Part shown: positions 3,566 through 50,491 of the stretch, piece after piece
How the letters are laid out: every line of letters begins with the position of its first letter
Numbering within the stretch: the stretch's first letter is position 1
From: Bacilli bacterium
GTDB lineage: Bacteria; Bacillota_I; Bacilli_A; RFN20; CAG-826
Length of the DNA stretch: 50,491 bases
Direction of reading: 5' to 3'
NCBI GenBank assembly: GCA_028705995.1
Contig: JAQWCH010000007.1
Coordinates: 1-50,491 of the forward strand
The notes under the pieces: model-generated
Database searches by the model: none
Told to the model about the DNA's origin: nothing
The model's input: only the letters and a program-made list of their open reading frames with translations
Program-made: the position numbers and the translations under genes

Positions 3566-3594
3566 TTGTAAATTTATTAAAATATTTGTAAGAT
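3566..3594 (+). promoter_or_regulatory. Candidate promoter of the agmatinase operon
   Basis: TTGTAA (3566-3571), a 17 base spacer and TAAGAT (3589-3594) form a reasonable sigma-A promoter. Transcription would begin only about six bases before the ATG at 3607, leaving almost no 5' leader and only a weak GGTG as ribosome site. Confidence 0.45.
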
Positions 3595-3606
3595 TATGGT
3601 GAAAAT

Positions 3607-4491
3607 ATGAAAAAGTTTCGTGATCTATTAGCTAAAGATATCGAGAGCGCTAAAGTGATTATTGCAGGGCTCCCTTTTGATGACCATGCTTCGGTTGGTA
3701 AAGGTAGTGCATTAGCACCCCTAAAAATCCGTAAGCTCTCGGCAGATCTCCCTCCCTTTTCGCGCGATGGTATTGATATACGTGATTTTCCTATTTTCGA
3801 TTATGGGGATTTTTCATCTAATGACTTTAGTGAGATTACCTTAGCCGCTCAAACGCTTTTTAAGCGGGAGCGGTTTTTGCTTTTTATTGGCGGTGATCAT
3901 TCGTATACGATTCCGCTGATTCCCGCTTTTATTCAAGATGCAAAGAAACGGAAGAAAACACCGGTTCTCATTCATATTGATGCCCATCCTGATATTTGTG
4001 ATGTTTATCATGGCTCAATGTTCTCGCATGCTTGCCCTGTTCGTCGTTCAATTGATGCTGGTATTAAAACCGAAAACATTGTTTTAATTGGAATTCGCGG
4101 TTATGAAGCGCAGGAAGTTTCATATTTTAAAGAACATCCCGAGATTTCCGTTTTTAATGCCTCGACACTGCTTAAAGATGGGATTGATCGTTTATTAGCG
4201 CGCCTCGCTCAATACCAAAAAGATGAATATGATGTTTATCTTTCCTATGATATCGACGCTAATGATCCATCTTACGCGCCGGGAACAGGAACACCGGAAG
4301 CTTTTGGTCTACCTGCTCCAATGACACTGGAAATTATTTTATCAATCATTGCTAAGCTTAATGTCCGGGCGATGGATTTAATGGAAGTTGCGCCCCCCCT
4401 TGATACAAATGATGTAACAACGTGGCTTGCTTTAAAAACAATATACGAGATATTTGCATGCTTAAAAGAAAAGGAGAAAACTGCTGCATGA
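3607..4491 (+). CDS. speB: Agmatinase (ureohydrolase family)
   Basis: A 294-residue ureohydrolase that is expected to split agmatine into putrescine and urea in the cytoplasm. The binuclear manganese ligands are all visible: GGDHS (His98), HIDAHPD (Asp125, His127, Asp129) and SYDIDANDP (Asp215, Asp217), followed by APGTGTPEAFG, the conserved substrate-loop region. The segment DVYHGSMFSHACPVRR resembles agmatinases rather than arginases or formiminoglutamases. The stop codon overlaps the start of the next gene in ATGA, so the two are translationally coupled. The neighbour is a SpeD-like pyruvoyl decarboxylase, which fits a polyamine pathway. Guanidinobutyrase or another guanidino substrate cannot be excluded from sequence alone. 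Confidence 0.85.
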   Translation: MKKFRDLLAKDIESAKVIIAGLPFDDHASVGKGSALAPLKIRKLSADLPPFSRDGIDIRDFPIFDYGDFSSNDFSEITLAAQTLFKRERFLLFIGGDHSYTIPLIPAFIQDAKKRKKTPVLIHIDAHPDICDVYHGSMFSHACPVRRSIDAGIKTENIVLIGIRGYEAQEVSYFKEHPEISVFNASTLLKDGIDRLLARLAQYQKDEYDVYLSYDIDANDPSYAPGTGTPEAFGLPAPMTLEIILSIIAKLNVRAMDLMEVAPPLDTNDVTTWLALKTIYEIFACLKEKEKTAA

Positions 4492-5291
4492 AACATACAA
4501 CGCTTGATGCTTATAATTCTAATCCACGCCAACTTGATGATATTAAACTCATCTATGAGGTGCTCACAACCCTTGCCTACAAATTAAAACTCAATGCAAT
4601 TTGCCCACCACAAATTGTGCCCTATTATTATGGAAAGGTAAAAAAAGATATCGGAGTTTCCGGCTTTATTCTTTTAGAAGGCGGTCATATTACGATTCAC
4701 ACATTCCCATTACGTGAATGCTACTTTTTAGATGTGTTTTCGGTTAAAGATTTTGATCCGGAAATCATTGAAAACTACTTGTCACTAATCCTTCCCTACA
4801 CGGCGCGAGAATCACTATTTATTCCTGATGGTCGGCGGACACCACTCGTCCATACACGCGAGTATCATCCAGCCTCGGATTTTGGCCCTCATGTCATGGT
4901 TGATATTCAAACCAAAGATAAAATTGATATGGAAAAAATGTCGGACTTTCTTGAACAACTTGTACCCGATATCGGCATGGACCCAATTACACGTTCTTAC
5001 GTTTTAAAAAGCTCGATTCGGAAACCAAAATTCTTAACTGGCATTATTGTCATCGCCCAATCGCATATCTCAATGCATTATGAATATAAGACAGGTAAAC
5101 TCTATTTTGATGTATTCTCTTGCCGGGCATTTGATACTTCCGTATTAGATCCTTATCTTGCGATGCTTGGCGAGAATAAATTTAATATTCTTGTCCCCCG
5201 CGGAAGTGATCACATTGATAAAGTAAAGGCTAATCACGCGCGCGATGAATTCCGCGCAAGTGGTCGCTGGCAAAGACAAATTCGTAAATAA
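4488..5291 (+). CDS. speD: Double-domain SpeD-like pyruvoyl-dependent decarboxylase
   Basis: A 267-residue protein made of two tandem copies of the bacterial SpeD fold (the usual class 1b S-adenosylmethionine decarboxylase has about 130 residues). By alignment to the Thermotoga enzyme as I recall it, the C-terminal copy keeps the self-cleaving serine (QSHISMH, Ser192), the processing histidine (His197) and the catalytic cysteine (FSC, Cys212), though the residue before the cleavage site is Gln instead of Glu. The N-terminal copy reads EGGHITIH, with glycines at the cleavage site and Val86 in place of the cysteine, so it cannot form a pyruvoyl group. ATG at 4488 overlaps the agmatinase stop and has GGAG upstream. 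No spermidine synthase gene is nearby. It could be an S-adenosylmethionine decarboxylase or a SpeD paralogue acting on arginine or ornithine. Confidence 0.82.
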   Translation: MKHTTLDAYNSNPRQLDDIKLIYEVLTTLAYKLKLNAICPPQIVPYYYGKVKKDIGVSGFILLEGGHITIHTFPLRECYFLDVFSVKDFDPEIIENYLSLILPYTARESLFIPDGRRTPLVHTREYHPASDFGPHVMVDIQTKDKIDMEKMSDFLEQLVPDIGMDPITRSYVLKSSIRKPKFLTGIIVIAQSHISMHYEYKTGKLYFDVFSCRAFDTSVLDPYLAMLGENKFNILVPRGSDHIDKVKANHARDEFRASGRWQRQIRK

Positions 5292-5295
5292 AAAC

Positions 5296-5328
5296 AAATC
5301 CCTGGTCGAATTGCCAGGGATTTTTATT
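5296..5328 (+). terminator. Terminator between speBD and mgsA (convergent)
   Basis: AAATCCCTGG (5296-5305) pairs with CCAGGGATTT (5314-5323) around an 8-base loop, followed by TTATT. The reverse strand also has a T-rich run (TTTGTTTTTATTT), so it can stop transcription from both sides of this convergent pair. Confidence 0.85.
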
Positions 5329-11962: not shown

Positions 11963-12403
11963 TAATCATCCCCCGATTAAAGCGCGAGATATAAAATCGA
12001 CAACTTGTAGGATTACTGAATTAGAAAGGAGGTAAAGAGTATTCTGCTACAAAGTTGCGAGCCCGCTAAACTGCAGGTGCCTCATATTAACACCAAATAA
12101 ACAATAGACAAGTAAAAATATTTCAAAAACTTAATGTAAGCGTTTTCGTGTTTTTTTTACCTATTTTAATTCTTTTTTTGAAAAGCACTTATACTTTTAT
12201 GCGATTATCACGATACTCAGTTCTCGATTGATAAAGTTTAGTTTCCTTAATGGATTTTGATAAAGCAAAAATTTATTTATATATTTAAGAATTGTTTTTC
12301 AAATAGCTAGAACCTAATCATTTTAATCCCTGGTACGATGCTGTATACTATGCCTTACTGTATAGATTATTACTCTATCAATTCTTCGTTCGAGGTATAT
12401 GAA
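11963..12403. other. Intergenic region upstream of the secreted nuclease gene
   Basis: About 440 bases without a supported gene. It holds a perfect ribosome-site sequence AAAGGAGG at 12025-12032 that is not followed by ATG, GTG or TTG at a normal distance, a cre-like box at 12135-12148 and AT-rich sequence. The only frame at the right distance begins with ATT at 12041 and runs 19 codons to TAA at 12098-12100. Confidence 0.45.
12135..12148 (+). promoter_or_regulatory. cre-like operator upstream of the secreted nuclease
   Basis: TGTAAGCGTTTTCG matches 13 of 14 positions of the CcpA box TGWAANCGNTNWCA, differing only in the last base. It lies about 255 bases before the nuclease start, so it would fit carbon control of extracellular DNA use if the promoter lies near it. 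No clear promoter was found to anchor it. Confidence 0.42.
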
Positions 12404-15022
12404 ATGAAACTACACTTAAAATTTACGAAAAATGTTCAGCACTCGATGTTTGTTTTTCTTTTTACAAGCCTAACTTTCTCTTTATTAAGTTCAGTTAATT
12501 ACCGCCAACCTATCCATCTGGAAGCAGCAATTCCATCAAGCGGCATCAACGCGACTAACTTGACGGATATCGAAGTAAATGCCTACTATCAGCAAGCAAA
12601 TGTTGATGGATTAACAGGCGAAGCGTTAAAGAGTGCTTTACACAATTTGATTGATGACCATAGCACAGTTTCTTATGATGGCTTGAAAACGGCGATGAAG
12701 ATTACTGATCGCGACTGGGCATCATCACCACTGACAAGTGCGGAGTTAAGTACTTATACCCATAACGATGATCCTAATTTAGATGTTTTTTATAGTAATA
12801 GCACAATAAAATCAAGTAATATTGGTTCTTCCGAAAACACGTGGAACCGCGAACATACTTGGGCAAAATCACATGGTAATTTTGGTGAATCATCACCGGC
12901 AGGAACAGATTTGCATCATTTGCGCGCGTCAGAAGCCTATTATAATAGTAAACATGGAAGTCTTGATTTCGGTGACACTGGTTGGACTCCGCCATATGTA
13001 AATGATAAAGGCGATATCGCGCGCATGATTTTCTATATGCCGGTTAGATATTTTGAATTTATCAGTGTGGCAGACCCTAAACTAGAAATCTTAAATTCGA
13101 AAACATCTGGGAATACTGCTTCAAGTACGGTTACTGGAAAAATGGGAATTCTTGATGATTTACTCGCATGGCATTATGAAGATCCCGTTGATGATTTTGA
13201 AATTCATCGGAACAATCTTATTTATAATAATTATCAATATAATCGTAATCCGTTTGTAGATCATCCAGAATGGGTCGATATGATTTATGATTCTTCTTAC
13301 TCAGGACCAGGGGCAAGTACAGCGGCTGGTACATCGAGTGTCGGTGATGGTGTGATTAATAGTCCTTTAACCAGCATCACTATTGATACGACTGATGTCC
13401 AAACAAGTTTTGATCAAGGTGAAGCTTTTAATAGCTTAAACCTTATTGTCACCGCTCATTATGAAGATAGTACTTCCCAGGTTATATCAACATACACGAC
13501 TTCACCAACAAGCGGTAGTTCACTAAATACAAGCGGTAATCAATCAGTCACTGTCACTTACAGTGAAAATGGTATAAGCAAGTCGGCAACTTACACAATT
13601 AGTGTTTCCGTAAAAACAGTTATTGGTATTAGTGTCTATGCATTACCAACAATAACACAATATGCGGTTAATGAAACTTTCAATAGCAATGGCCTTTTAG
13701 TTCAAGCAACCTATGATGATAATGCGACTGGTTGGATTAATGATTATGTTTTAAACCCTGCTAACGGCAGTGAGTTGGGTAATATTGGTAATCAAACAAT
13801 TCAAATAACAGCAGCTGGTCAATCCACGTCGTTTACGGTCGCAGTTGGTCAACTTTCAACGCTTTTAGCGACACCGAGTATTACAACTGTCGCTCTCGGT
13901 GAAACATATGTGGATAATGATATTGAACTTATGGCCACCTATAGCGCCCCTAATATAACTTCCTTTACACGAAATATTGAAACATTCTCGATTACTGGTG
14001 AAGTTAACACCGCAGCACTTGGAACCTACATACGAACTGTTAGTTATGACGGTTTATCGACGACCTTTTCGGTTAAAGTCACCAATGTTGGAGCTAACGC
14101 TGGGGAAAATGAGCCCGCATCAAATCTATTTATTTCCGAATATGTGGAAGGCAGTAGCAACAATAAAGCAATTGAAATTTACAATGGAACTGGTGCTTCT
14201 ATTGATCTAGGTGCTTTCGAAATTAAAATATATGCTAACGGCAATACAACACCGATTAATACTTTTTCACTCGCAAGTACTACTCTTGCTAATGAAGCGA
14301 CTTATGTTGTAGTCAATAGTAGCGCTTCCGCAGCTTTAAAAAGTGCCGCTGATTTATTAACTGGGTCTTTATCACATAATGGTAATGATGTGATTGAGCT
14401 TGTAGAAAACAATGTTGTGATTGAACGCATTGGAACTATCGGTGATAGCAATGTTTTTGCCGAAGACGTCACCCTCGTCCGTAAATCAACAATCGCCGAA
14501 CCAACTACTATTTATGATGCGAGTGCGTGGGATACTTATCCGAGTGATACATTTACTAACCTCGGTACACACACTTTTAGCGGCGGTAGTGCAACCTTAA
14601 CTCCGCTAGAACAAGCCACGGCGTTTAGCGTATATTTCCTTGAACTGACTAGCGATGTTTGTGTTTTAAATGGAACCACGAATCAAAGCGCACTGATGGT
14701 TGTTTGGCAAGAACTCGCAAATGAATACGCACCAATGGCGGGTGATAGTAAAGATATCATTTTCAATGCAATTGCCGATGATAGTAGTAGCGATTCCATC
14801 GCCCAAGCAAAAGCGCGTTATATTTATATTATTGAAAAGTATCAAGCTGAATATACGAACTTTCTGGAAGATGCTGAAGGAACTAAATTAATGCTTGAAG
14901 TAACACATTTTGTACCAAGTACATCTTTAGAAATTTCCACGCATCTTCTATTGTTAATTATTCTAATTATTTTCTTCTCAACAATAGTTTATTATTTTTA
15001 TCGAACACGCCAAAAACAATAA
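12404..15022 (+). CDS. Secreted, membrane-anchored endonuclease I with Ig-like and lamin-tail domains
   Basis: An 872-residue exported protein. A signal peptide (about 1-41) is followed by an endonuclease I domain (about 45-310) of the His-Me finger type: TWNREHTWAKSH (catalytic His151) and GTDLHHLRASEAYYN, with RNNLIYNNYQYNRNPFVDHPEW at its end. Three bacterial immunoglobulin-like repeats follow (about 318-540), then a lamin tail domain (ISEYVEGSSNNKAIEIYNGT, about 545-695), a helical segment with AKARYIYIIEKY, and a C-terminal membrane helix with a short basic tail. It should degrade DNA outside the cell while tethered to the membrane; no LPxTG sorting motif is present. GAGG lies 8 bases before the ATG at 12404, which is preferred to upstream starts. 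A partial paralogue lies at 48778-50491. Confidence 0.9.
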   Translation: MKLHLKFTKNVQHSMFVFLFTSLTFSLLSSVNYRQPIHLEAAIPSSGINATNLTDIEVNAYYQQANVDGLTGEALKSALHNLIDDHSTVSYDGLKTAMKITDRDWASSPLTSAELSTYTHNDDPNLDVFYSNSTIKSSNIGSSENTWNREHTWAKSHGNFGESSPAGTDLHHLRASEAYYNSKHGSLDFGDTGWTPPYVNDKGDIARMIFYMPVRYFEFISVADPKLEILNSKTSGNTASSTVTGKMGILDDLLAWHYEDPVDDFEIHRNNLIYNNYQYNRNPFVDHPEWVDMIYDSSYSGPGASTAAGTSSVGDGVINSPLTSITIDTTDVQTSFDQGEAFNSLNLIVTAHYEDSTSQVISTYTTSPTSGSSLNTSGNQSVTVTYSENGISKSATYTISVSVKTVIGISVYALPTITQYAVNETFNSNGLLVQATYDDNATGWINDYVLNPANGSELGNIGNQTIQITAAGQSTSFTVAVGQLSTLLATPSITTVALGETYVDNDIELMATYSAPNITSFTRNIETFSITGEVNTAALGTYIRTVSYDGLSTTFSVKVTNVGANAGENEPASNLFISEYVEGSSNNKAIEIYNGTGASIDLGAFEIKIYANGNTTPINTFSLASTTLANEATYVVVNSSASAALKSAADLLTGSLSHNGNDVIELVENNVVIERIGTIGDSNVFAEDVTLVRKSTIAEPTTIYDASAWDTYPSDTFTNLGTHTFSGGSATLTPLEQATAFSVYFLELTSDVCVLNGTTNQSALMVVWQELANEYAPMAGDSKDIIFNAIADDSSSDSIAQAKARYIYIIEKYQAEYTNFLEDAEGTKLMLEVTHFVPSTSLEISTHLLLLIILIIFFSTIVYYFYRTRQKQ

Positions 15023-48777: not shown

Positions 48778-50491
48778 TTATGCTTCACTACTTTTTTTGC
48801 TGAAACTATAGAAAAGGAAACCAAACAATATAAAGCCCGCAATTATAATAATATAATTTTCAAATTCAGCCGTAAAATAATCATTTGGCGTTTGTCTTGC
48901 GTTTAATATATTCCCTGCCCCATCATCGATAAACGCCACTAAAGAATACTTATTAATCAAGTACTCATATCTTGCTTTTGCCGCCAGTATATATTCATTG
49001 GTCGAATTATAATAAAATGCATACTTAGTTTCCGCGCTCATATAGGAATATTCTACTTGCAAATAACTCCAAGGCGAATCTCCGCCATTGAGCACACTGC
49101 AATAGGGCGCAGTTTCATCAAGAAGAAAATGAGCATAGGCAAGCGCTTGATCCAGGTGATATTTTTCAGAATCTATGCTTGTACCAATGAATGTGTGTAA
49201 TCCAATATCGCTTGTGGTATCATTTGCGTATACTTCCCACTCACTCCAAGTAAACACCGTATTTGGCTCACTAACAGTTTCTGTTCTACGTAATGTTTTA
49301 TCAACAGTTGAACCTGCTCCATTACTCGCTGTTCCAGTCCATGCCGAACCTGGATCACTACCAATCACACCAATTAAATCAATTAAGATATCATTTTTAT
49401 ATAAACCAATCGCGTCATCACCGTTAAAGTTAGTAACGCCACTTGTGATATCTGATTGTGATGTTATGTCCACCAAATCAGCACTGCTATAACTAATTAC
49501 ATAAACATCATTATTTTGAATGTTTCCAGTTAAATTTAGCGTTGTTACTGGAGAAGTCGCTCCATTTGAAAATAAATGTACTGAATAACTCGTTAATGAT
49601 TTCTCTTCACCTGTACCATTATAGATTTCAAGCGCTTTGTTATAACTACTACCCTCAATATATTCCGAAAAAAATAAATCATTTGTTGTTGCAATGGGTT
49701 GGCTTGCGTTTAAATTAGTCACAGTTAATGTAAACGATGTCGATAATGATTTATGTGTAACATTAATTAAATTCGCACCAAGATTTTTTGTATCATAAAC
49801 ACCAAAAGACAAATCAGCATTGGCCACATTTTCAGTAAATGTCCCATTTGCTGTTGTATATGAAAAACTACCGCTAATGATTGAATTATCAAATTCAGCG
49901 TTGTAAGCAATTGTTGCATTCGCTGGTGACAATGTTAAATTTTCTTTTGCGCCAACAAAAACATTAAAAGTTGTTGTTAGAGCGTCGACTGTGACAGTAA
50001 CAACATTAACACCAACAGTATTCAAAACAAGTGACGAACTGCCATTGATTGTTAGTGTATAATTCGCTACCGTAACTATGTTGTTATCGCTCTGCGTGCC
50101 AGTTATTACCAATCCAGTTGGGTCTAATGTCGCACCAACATAATAATCGACTTTACTTGGATTATTAGTTACACTAATACTTACTAAATCAGTTGGATCT
50201 ACTACGCCTAGACCAACTGATGATGATTCAGGGGCAACTGATGCTCCACTACCAGAATAACTAGTATCATATGCGATGCGCGCCCATTCTGGATGATCAA
50301 TAAACGGATTGCGATTTAATTGATAGTTATTAAAGATTAGATTATTTCGGCGAATTTCATATTCATCAACTGGATCAAGTTCGTTCCATAAAAGCAACGT
50401 TTCTAAATCACCCGCTAAGCCGGATTGTGTATTAGATGCGACGATTGCGCTTGGTGAACCATTAACTAATTCAAGTTTGGGATGTAAGACA
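48778..50491 (-). CDS. Secreted endonuclease I/lamin-tail protein, 3' part (second paralogue)
   Basis: The reading frame is open to the window edge, so the 5' end with signal peptide and catalytic motif is missing. The visible 570 residues begin with VLHPKLELVNGS and the end of the endonuclease I domain (DEYEIRRNNLIFNNYQLNRN, then PFIDHPEW), aligned with the same region of the protein at 12404-15022. Two immunoglobulin-like repeats, a lamin tail domain (LFFSEYIEGSSYNKALEIYN), a helical domain with AAKARYEYLINKYS, and a C-terminal membrane helix with a basic tail follow in the same order as in the paralogue. It should be a membrane-tethered extracellular nuclease. The domain call rests partly on the paralogue since the NREH motif lies outside the window. 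Confidence 0.87.
   Translation of the reverse strand, partial: VLHPKLELVNGSPSAIVASNTQSGLAGDLETLLLWNELDPVDEYEIRRNNLIFNNYQLNRNPFIDHPEWARIAYDTSYSGSGASVAPESSSVGLGVVDPTDLVSISVTNNPSKVDYYVGATLDPTGLVITGTQSDNNIVTVANYTLTINGSSSLVLNTVGVNVVTVTVDALTTTFNVFVGAKENLTLSPANATIAYNAEFDNSIISGSFSYTTANGTFTENVANADLSFGVYDTKNLGANLINVTHKSLSTSFTLTVTNLNASQPIATTNDLFFSEYIEGSSYNKALEIYNGTGEEKSLTSYSVHLFSNGATSPVTTLNLTGNIQNNDVYVISYSSADLVDITSQSDITSGVTNFNGDDAIGLYKNDILIDLIGVIGSDPGSAWTGTASNGAGSTVDKTLRRTETVSEPNTVFTWSEWEVYANDTTSDIGLHTFIGTSIDSEKYHLDQALAYAHFLLDETAPYCSVLNGGDSPWSYLQVEYSYMSAETKYAFYYNSTNEYILAAKARYEYLINKYSLVAFIDDGAGNILNARQTPNDYFTAEFENYIIIIAGFILFGFLFYSFSKKSSEA

Follow-up and report, generated by a model that had tools for sequence, protein, structure and literature searches.

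Among the homologues of the decarboxylase SpeD, Li et al. 2023 described single-domain arginine decarboxylases (SpeDA) and ornithine decarboxylases (SpeDC), as well as SpeD-SpeDC fusions, which are encoded upstream of speE and comprise a live N-terminal AdoMet decarboxylase, in some cases followed by a dead C-terminal half (PMC10407285). Fusions with a dead C-terminal half were proposed as a model for the eukaryotic AdoMet decarboxylase, while, according to the same authors, prokaryotes do not seem to have any extant fusion that joins two bona fide SpeDs (PMC10407285). An eLife study of the T. brucei AdoMetDC regards the eukaryotic enzyme as two bacterial half-sandwich enzymes fused together (PMC5201418). 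In Vampirovibrio, a speD-speD-speE-speB layout combines SpeD1, an AdoMet decarboxylase, with SpeD2, for which arginine decarboxylation has been proven (PMC10407285). How the AdoMet decarboxylase of eukaryotes came to be fused and half-dead is an open question, to which the protein family considered here is relevant: in all published bacterial models, the first half is the live one and the second is of the ornithine type, whereas this family joins two like domains and has the opposite half silenced.

The window, i.e. the whole stretch of 50,491 nucleotides that was analysed (contig JAQWCH010000007.1, assembly GCA_028705995.1), belongs to a tiny Bacilli bacterium of the wall-less type with a genome of 1.02 Mb (95% complete). 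On its plus strand, the open reading frame of an agmatinase-type ureohydrolase of 294 aa (3607..4491; 213 bits against PF00491) is followed by that of a double-domain SpeD homologue of 267 aa, counted from the ATG at 4488 (4488..5291; two PF02675 matches). Stop and start codon of the two genes overlap in an ATGA (4488..4491), which likely entails translational coupling, and a ribosome-binding-like AAGGAG (4471-4476, plus strand) is positioned 11 bases 5' of the second start. Downstream of the double SpeD, an inverted-repeat scan places a terminator-like repeat of 10 pairs with an 8-base loop on the minus strand (5296..5323), and the plus strand also forms a stem-loop there, followed by TTTTTATT. 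Hence, ureohydrolase and double SpeD look like a closed two-gene unit. Candidate strong sigma-70 promoters were dropped, their counts being close to the shuffled expectation.

The two PF02675 stretches of the 267-aa protein score 60.3 and 38.1 bits, each above the curated cut-off of 25. The N-terminal half (approximately aa 1-118, 4488..4841) has lost the self-cleavage site: Gly65-Gly66 (4680..4685) replaces the Glu-Ser pair, and Val86 (4743..4745) occupies the position of the catalytic Cys in a column that is variable among 81 aligned sequences. On the contrary, the C-terminal half (approximately aa 129-250, 4872..5237) carries the predicted live site. It comprises FGPH (aa 132-135, 4881..4892), which is invariant in C-halves and common to single-domain agmatinase-linked SpeDs, the predicted self-cleavage site Gln191-Ser192 (5058..5063), whose serine would yield the pyruvoyl group, and His197 (5076..5078) and Cys212 (5121..5123), the counterparts of T. 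maritima His68 and Cys83; all of these features lie on the plus strand. The spacing of +5/+20 of Ser192, His197 and Cys212 is that of T. maritima Ser63, His68 and Cys83. Both the ATGA overlap and the tandem arrangement of a dead N-terminal and a live C-terminal SpeD domain had been noticed in a first-pass annotation of the sequence, and direct reading along with the ORF list and the profile matches bore them out, including all coordinates and residues. The emphasis of that annotation on the glutamine preceding the cleavage serine as a notable deviation had to be given up: across 81 family members, Gln and Glu occur there in a ratio of 46:35, which renders Gln191 ordinary variation, and the residue was discarded as a marker of the substrate. 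An AF2 model of the protein (pLDDT 90.3, pTM 0.90) matches T. maritima SpeD in Foldseek with an E of 9e-7 and a target-normalised TM of 0.77-0.80 over one half. No matches of the double SpeD to a defence-library were obtained.

The fusion is not confined to this genome but belongs to a large conserved family: a scan in which each species was represented by a single genome returned at least 80 relatives, distributed over Bacilli, many Clostridia, Myxococcota (Sorangium among them) and one Peribacteria bin; no double SpeD form was detected in the viral contigs searched. Within an alignment of 81 members, the window protein included, the C-half retains Ser and Cys throughout (81/81 each) and His197 in 78 sequences, while the N-half shows Gly66 in 81 and Gly65 in 80 sequences, a count that arises partly by construction because the N-half motif was one of the two search patterns of the scan. 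As a control, 196 genomes of the window's order were searched with the PF02675 profile, without the N-half motif. SpeD was found in 11 of them, in each case as two PF02675 matches within one reading frame, and the 10 loci that were re-read (the 11th being that of the window) all feature [GC]G in their N-halves and A[EQ]SH...FSC in their C-halves. As read from the sequences, the pattern of a dead N-half and a live C-half is far beyond chance. The occurrence within the order is patchy, as horizontal transfer or repeated loss would lead one to expect. In a search of 57 related genomes, the double protein is present in 7, with 33-62% identity. The most divergent member (L097:5908-6651; see also L010, L017 and L107) retains Ser and Cys of the C-half without His197 and stands alone, in a genome devoid of agmatinase and agmatine deiminase.

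Alignment of both halves with single-domain SpeDs reveals a complementary retention of motifs. The closest single-domain proteins carry two sets, the first comprising FGPH, A-E-S-H, H, FSC and RG, the second PY.G...ED.GIT and TF..K/R. N-halves keep the second set alone (PY..D.G.S, TF..R), and C-halves keep the first alone (FGPH, A[EQ]SH, H, FSC, RG). In the window, the N-half elements are the PYYYG...D.G.S loop (aa 45-58, 4620..4661, plus strand), which is lost in C-halves, and HTFPLR (aa 71-76, 4698..4715, plus strand), conserved in N-halves and represented by HY in C-halves. Among 26 N-halves compared, P45, Y46, D54, G56, S58, T69, H71 and F73 are invariant and R76 is found in 23; in the alignment of 81, H71 and F73 are present in every sequence and R76 in 74. 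Such a partition is expected if each of the two sites of an ancestral homodimer used both subunits and the fusion kept only one of them, and we infer that the two halves share one composite active site. According to this scheme, a SpeD-type pyruvoyl decarboxylase would have been duplicated and fused into a pseudo-dimer within a single chain. Its C-half would cut itself between Gln191 and Ser192, converting the latter to the pyruvoyl cofactor, while the N-half, unable to self-cleave, would provide the partner face of the same site through the PYYYG..D.G.S loop and the HTFPxR segment. Since the fusion consists of like domains, is conserved over several phyla and splits the ancestral motifs cleanly between its halves, the loss of one of a homodimer's two sites becomes directly testable.

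The relationship of the halves to characterized SpeD types was assessed by a tree of halves and single-domain SpeDs (126 columns, midpoint root). N-halves form one clade (100/99) and C-halves another (99/96), and both fall into a 98/95 group with speH_1 of Microcystis phage MaAM05 and a giant-phage SpeD, the sole anchor for the SpeDA type in this tree being a phage protein assigned from gene order. This phage gene, speH_1, is part of a complete speD-speD-speE-speB cluster, which corresponds to the gene order of Vampirovibrio with its arginine-decarboxylating SpeD2 (PMC10407285). The group is separated from the AdoMet decarboxylases of T. maritima, phage S-PM2 and MaAM05 speH_2, and also from the pelagiphage/ornithine-type clade. 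Pairwise scores agree: out of 15 references, the best match is MaAM05 speH_1 or the giant-phage SpeD for 26 of 26 N-halves and 25 of 26 C-halves. Two large phages, L119 (Microcystis phage MaAM05) and L122 (LR756501.1, a 735 kb uncultured phage), encode the single-domain SpeDs that come nearest to both halves. A published Pro marker for distinguishing AdoMet from arginine enzymes was left unused, the proven AdoMet decarboxylase of phage phiN3 being devoid of the obvious candidate Pro.

Gene content points in the same direction as the tree. The first-pass annotation had reported speE to be absent from the window, and this absence holds for the whole 1.02 Mb genome, which yields no match to the SpeE profile PF01564; the proposed search for an alternative arginine decarboxylase such as speA returned no PF02784 or PF01276 decarboxylase, and neither PvlArgDC (PF01862) nor SpeY was found. 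In Bacillota-type genomes with a double SpeD, a strong SpeE match is confined to 2 of 42, the window's included, SpeE being absent from 39 of the 41 further genomes. The genome encodes one ureohydrolase in total, namely the one adjoining the double SpeD. Its metal-site motifs GGDHS (aa 95-99), DAHPD (125-129) and SYDID (213-217) are all located, along with HGSMF (135-139) and GTGTPE (226-231), and in the PDB, guanidinobutyrase and agmatinases come closest, with arginases ranking lower. Agmatinase is encoded immediately upstream of the double SpeD in 22 of 80 loci among the relatives and nearby in 3 more, while agmatine deiminase replaces the adjacent agmatinase in 8 of 80; three Bacilli without agmatinase possess agmatine deiminase elsewhere in the genome. 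In Bacilli, the group of the window, the pairing with agmatinase is nearly constant. Since the two enzymes are unrelated and share agmatine alone as substrate, no other single argument for arginine decarboxylation is as strong as their alternation. Of 35 genomes checked with a double SpeD, 14 have neither enzyme; 12 of these are of the Clostridia type and feature another operon. In these 14 genomes, the substrate or the use of the product may thus be different, and the argument is strongest for the agmatinase-paired Bacilli, that of the window among them. In the Clostridia-type genomes, agmatine itself may be the product, or the protein may serve another role.

Taken together, these data make it probable that the window protein is a fused pyruvoyl arginine decarboxylase (SpeDA) with a composite site, which feeds agmatinase and thereby putrescine synthesis. 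Arginine would most likely be decarboxylated to agmatine, from which the translationally coupled agmatinase would release putrescine and urea, the end product thus likely being putrescine instead of spermidine. A pyruvoyl arginine decarboxylase supplying the neighbouring agmatinase had already been put forward in the first-pass annotation, and this suggestion passed the genomic tests, namely the absence of SpeE and of other decarboxylases, the adjacent sole ureohydrolase, the 22 plus 8 pairings in 80 loci and the clade. The presumed pathway would offer a PLP-free route to putrescine to reduced genomes where none of the usual decarboxylases were found.

Three other explanations have to be weighed against this assignment. 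The ureohydrolase could be an arginase and the fused SpeD an ornithine decarboxylase of the SpeDC type, a route via ornithine that would equally end in putrescine, and SpeDC enzymes are widespread (PMC10407285). Moreover, the ureohydrolase scores 168.4 bits against the agmatinase model TIGR01230, just under its equivalog cut-off of 174.3. This model nevertheless remains the best in NCBIfam and exceeds the arginase score of 106.3 bits, and this preference, together with the replacement by agmatine deiminase in relatives, which is sensible for agmatine only, speaks against the arginase route. In addition, the C-half falls outside the ornithine-type clade and lacks its Q...T-S...F pattern, whose status as the published SpeDC signature is deduced from ornithine-type-looking sequences; of the diagnostic Gln, Thr, Phe and Tyr, at positions deduced in the same way, the window protein matches Tyr only. 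Arginase plus ornithine decarboxylase is consequently deemed improbable.

Alternatively, the fusion might be a genuine AdoMet decarboxylase that supplies decarboxylated AdoMet to an unrecognised aminopropyltransferase, as the fold is the same and the best named model for the protein is TIGR03330, adenosylmethionine decarboxylase. The score of 69.4 bits, however, remains below the cut-off of 75.65, the genome has no SpeE, both tree and pairwise scores put the halves away from AdoMet decarboxylases, and HTWPE of T. maritima corresponds to HTFPL in the N-half and to HYEYK in the C-half, all of which leaves this option very improbable. Finally, the protein could decarboxylate another amino acid or have a regulatory role without catalysis, the gene pair then being maintained for some other reason; many Clostridia indeed harbor the fusion and a KGGVGR-type ATPase in one operon, without agmatine-consuming genes. 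Such a role is improbable given that the catalytic residues of the C-half vary little or not at all over several phyla and that agmatinase is a nearly constant companion in Bacilli.

As a probable fused arginine decarboxylase, the window protein can be set beside the described systems. With SpeDA (PMC10407285), it has in common the SpeD fold and pyruvoyl residues, a genome without SpeE or the PLP decarboxylases SpeA/SpeC, and clustering with agmatinase (SpeB) or agmatine deiminase (AguA). Published SpeDAs, though, are single-domain proteins (131 aa in Marinimicrobia), while here two domains are fused in 267 aa, one of them without cleavage site; furthermore, speDA is often found beside speY (PMC10407285), a gene missing from the window's genome. 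Hence, the protein is predicted to work like a fused SpeDA, which does not imply strict membership in the published single-domain group. The SpeD-SpeDC fusions of Desulfotignum, Omnitrophica and Victivallis (PMC10407285) are likewise composed of two tandem SpeD domains (271-318 aa in total), and in Victivallis one half is degraded as well. These fusions, however, feature a live AdoMet decarboxylase as N-half and an ornithine-type or dead C-half, with the gene 5' of speE (PMC10407285), whereas in the window the N-half is dead, the C-half predicted to be live, both halves are of the agmatinase-linked type and speE is lacking.

In the eukaryotic class 2 AdoMet decarboxylase, too, fusion has produced a pseudo-dimer whose chain has a single cleavage site. 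Its live half is N-terminal, its substrate is AdoMet and it contains extra insertions; the alignment shows the reverse order of dead and live half for the window protein, as already noted in the first-pass annotation. Sequence kinship does not extend beyond the fold, and the Foldseek match of the AF2 model to human AdoMet decarboxylase is globally weak (TM 0.35, rmsd 10.3). A live enzyme that needs a catalytically dead relative is further known from T. brucei AdoMetDC and its prozyme (PMC5201418), although these are separate eukaryotic class 2 subunits under allosteric activation, unlike the single chain found here. A literature search, mostly outside subscription journals, returned no published description of a SpeD fusion whose N-half is dead and whose C-half is live, nor of a fused SpeDA.

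In Clostridia, the SpeD fusion ends a conserved operon (L054:955-8359, L049:3-8366, L042, L050, L061 and L096). This starts with agmatine deiminase or agmatinase, or neither of them, followed by a protein of 600-860 aa that mostly lacks a Pfam domain, a ParA-like ATPase of the KGGVGR variant, a protein of mostly 720-820 aa without Pfam domain, and then the fusion; 3' of it, either a protein of 500-530 aa or the pair of a radical SAM protein and a PEP-utilising enzyme is encoded. For the 740-aa operon protein, no remote identity was found, and its model (pLDDT 76) gave no fold match. To our knowledge, no described system resembles this operon. A more far-reaching reading of the family is speculative and, on the sequence data considered, unlikely to hold in full: an undescribed, widespread class of fused pyruvoyl arginine decarboxylases, whose copies degenerated complementarily around a composite site with a C-terminal live half, would be an independent, mirrored replay of the origin of the eukaryotic enzyme, and its wiring into the KGGVGR-type ATPase operon of Clostridia would possibly make agmatine or putrescine a signal or effector there instead of a nutrient.

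A different architecture is encountered in Patescibacteria (L142, L146, L148, L149, L152 and L154), where proteins of about 435-460 aa end in a C-terminal SpeD domain, while the remainder resembles branched-chain polyamine synthase, as judged by eye only. In their SpeD part, N-S (T-S in L148) replaces E-S at the cleavage site, or the context is A-S-N-S/S-N-S. Elsewhere in the window, the contig edge (1-585, minus strand) shows an N-terminal glutamate dehydrogenase fragment running into phosphoglycerate dehydrogenase-looking sequence, probably a chimeric assembly junction. Two large secreted-looking proteins that resemble endonuclease I and bear Ig-like and lamin-tail-like segments are encoded at 12338-15022 and 48778-50397, and in one relative (L011) the SpeD fusion is flanked by a gene similar to these endonuclease I-like proteins.
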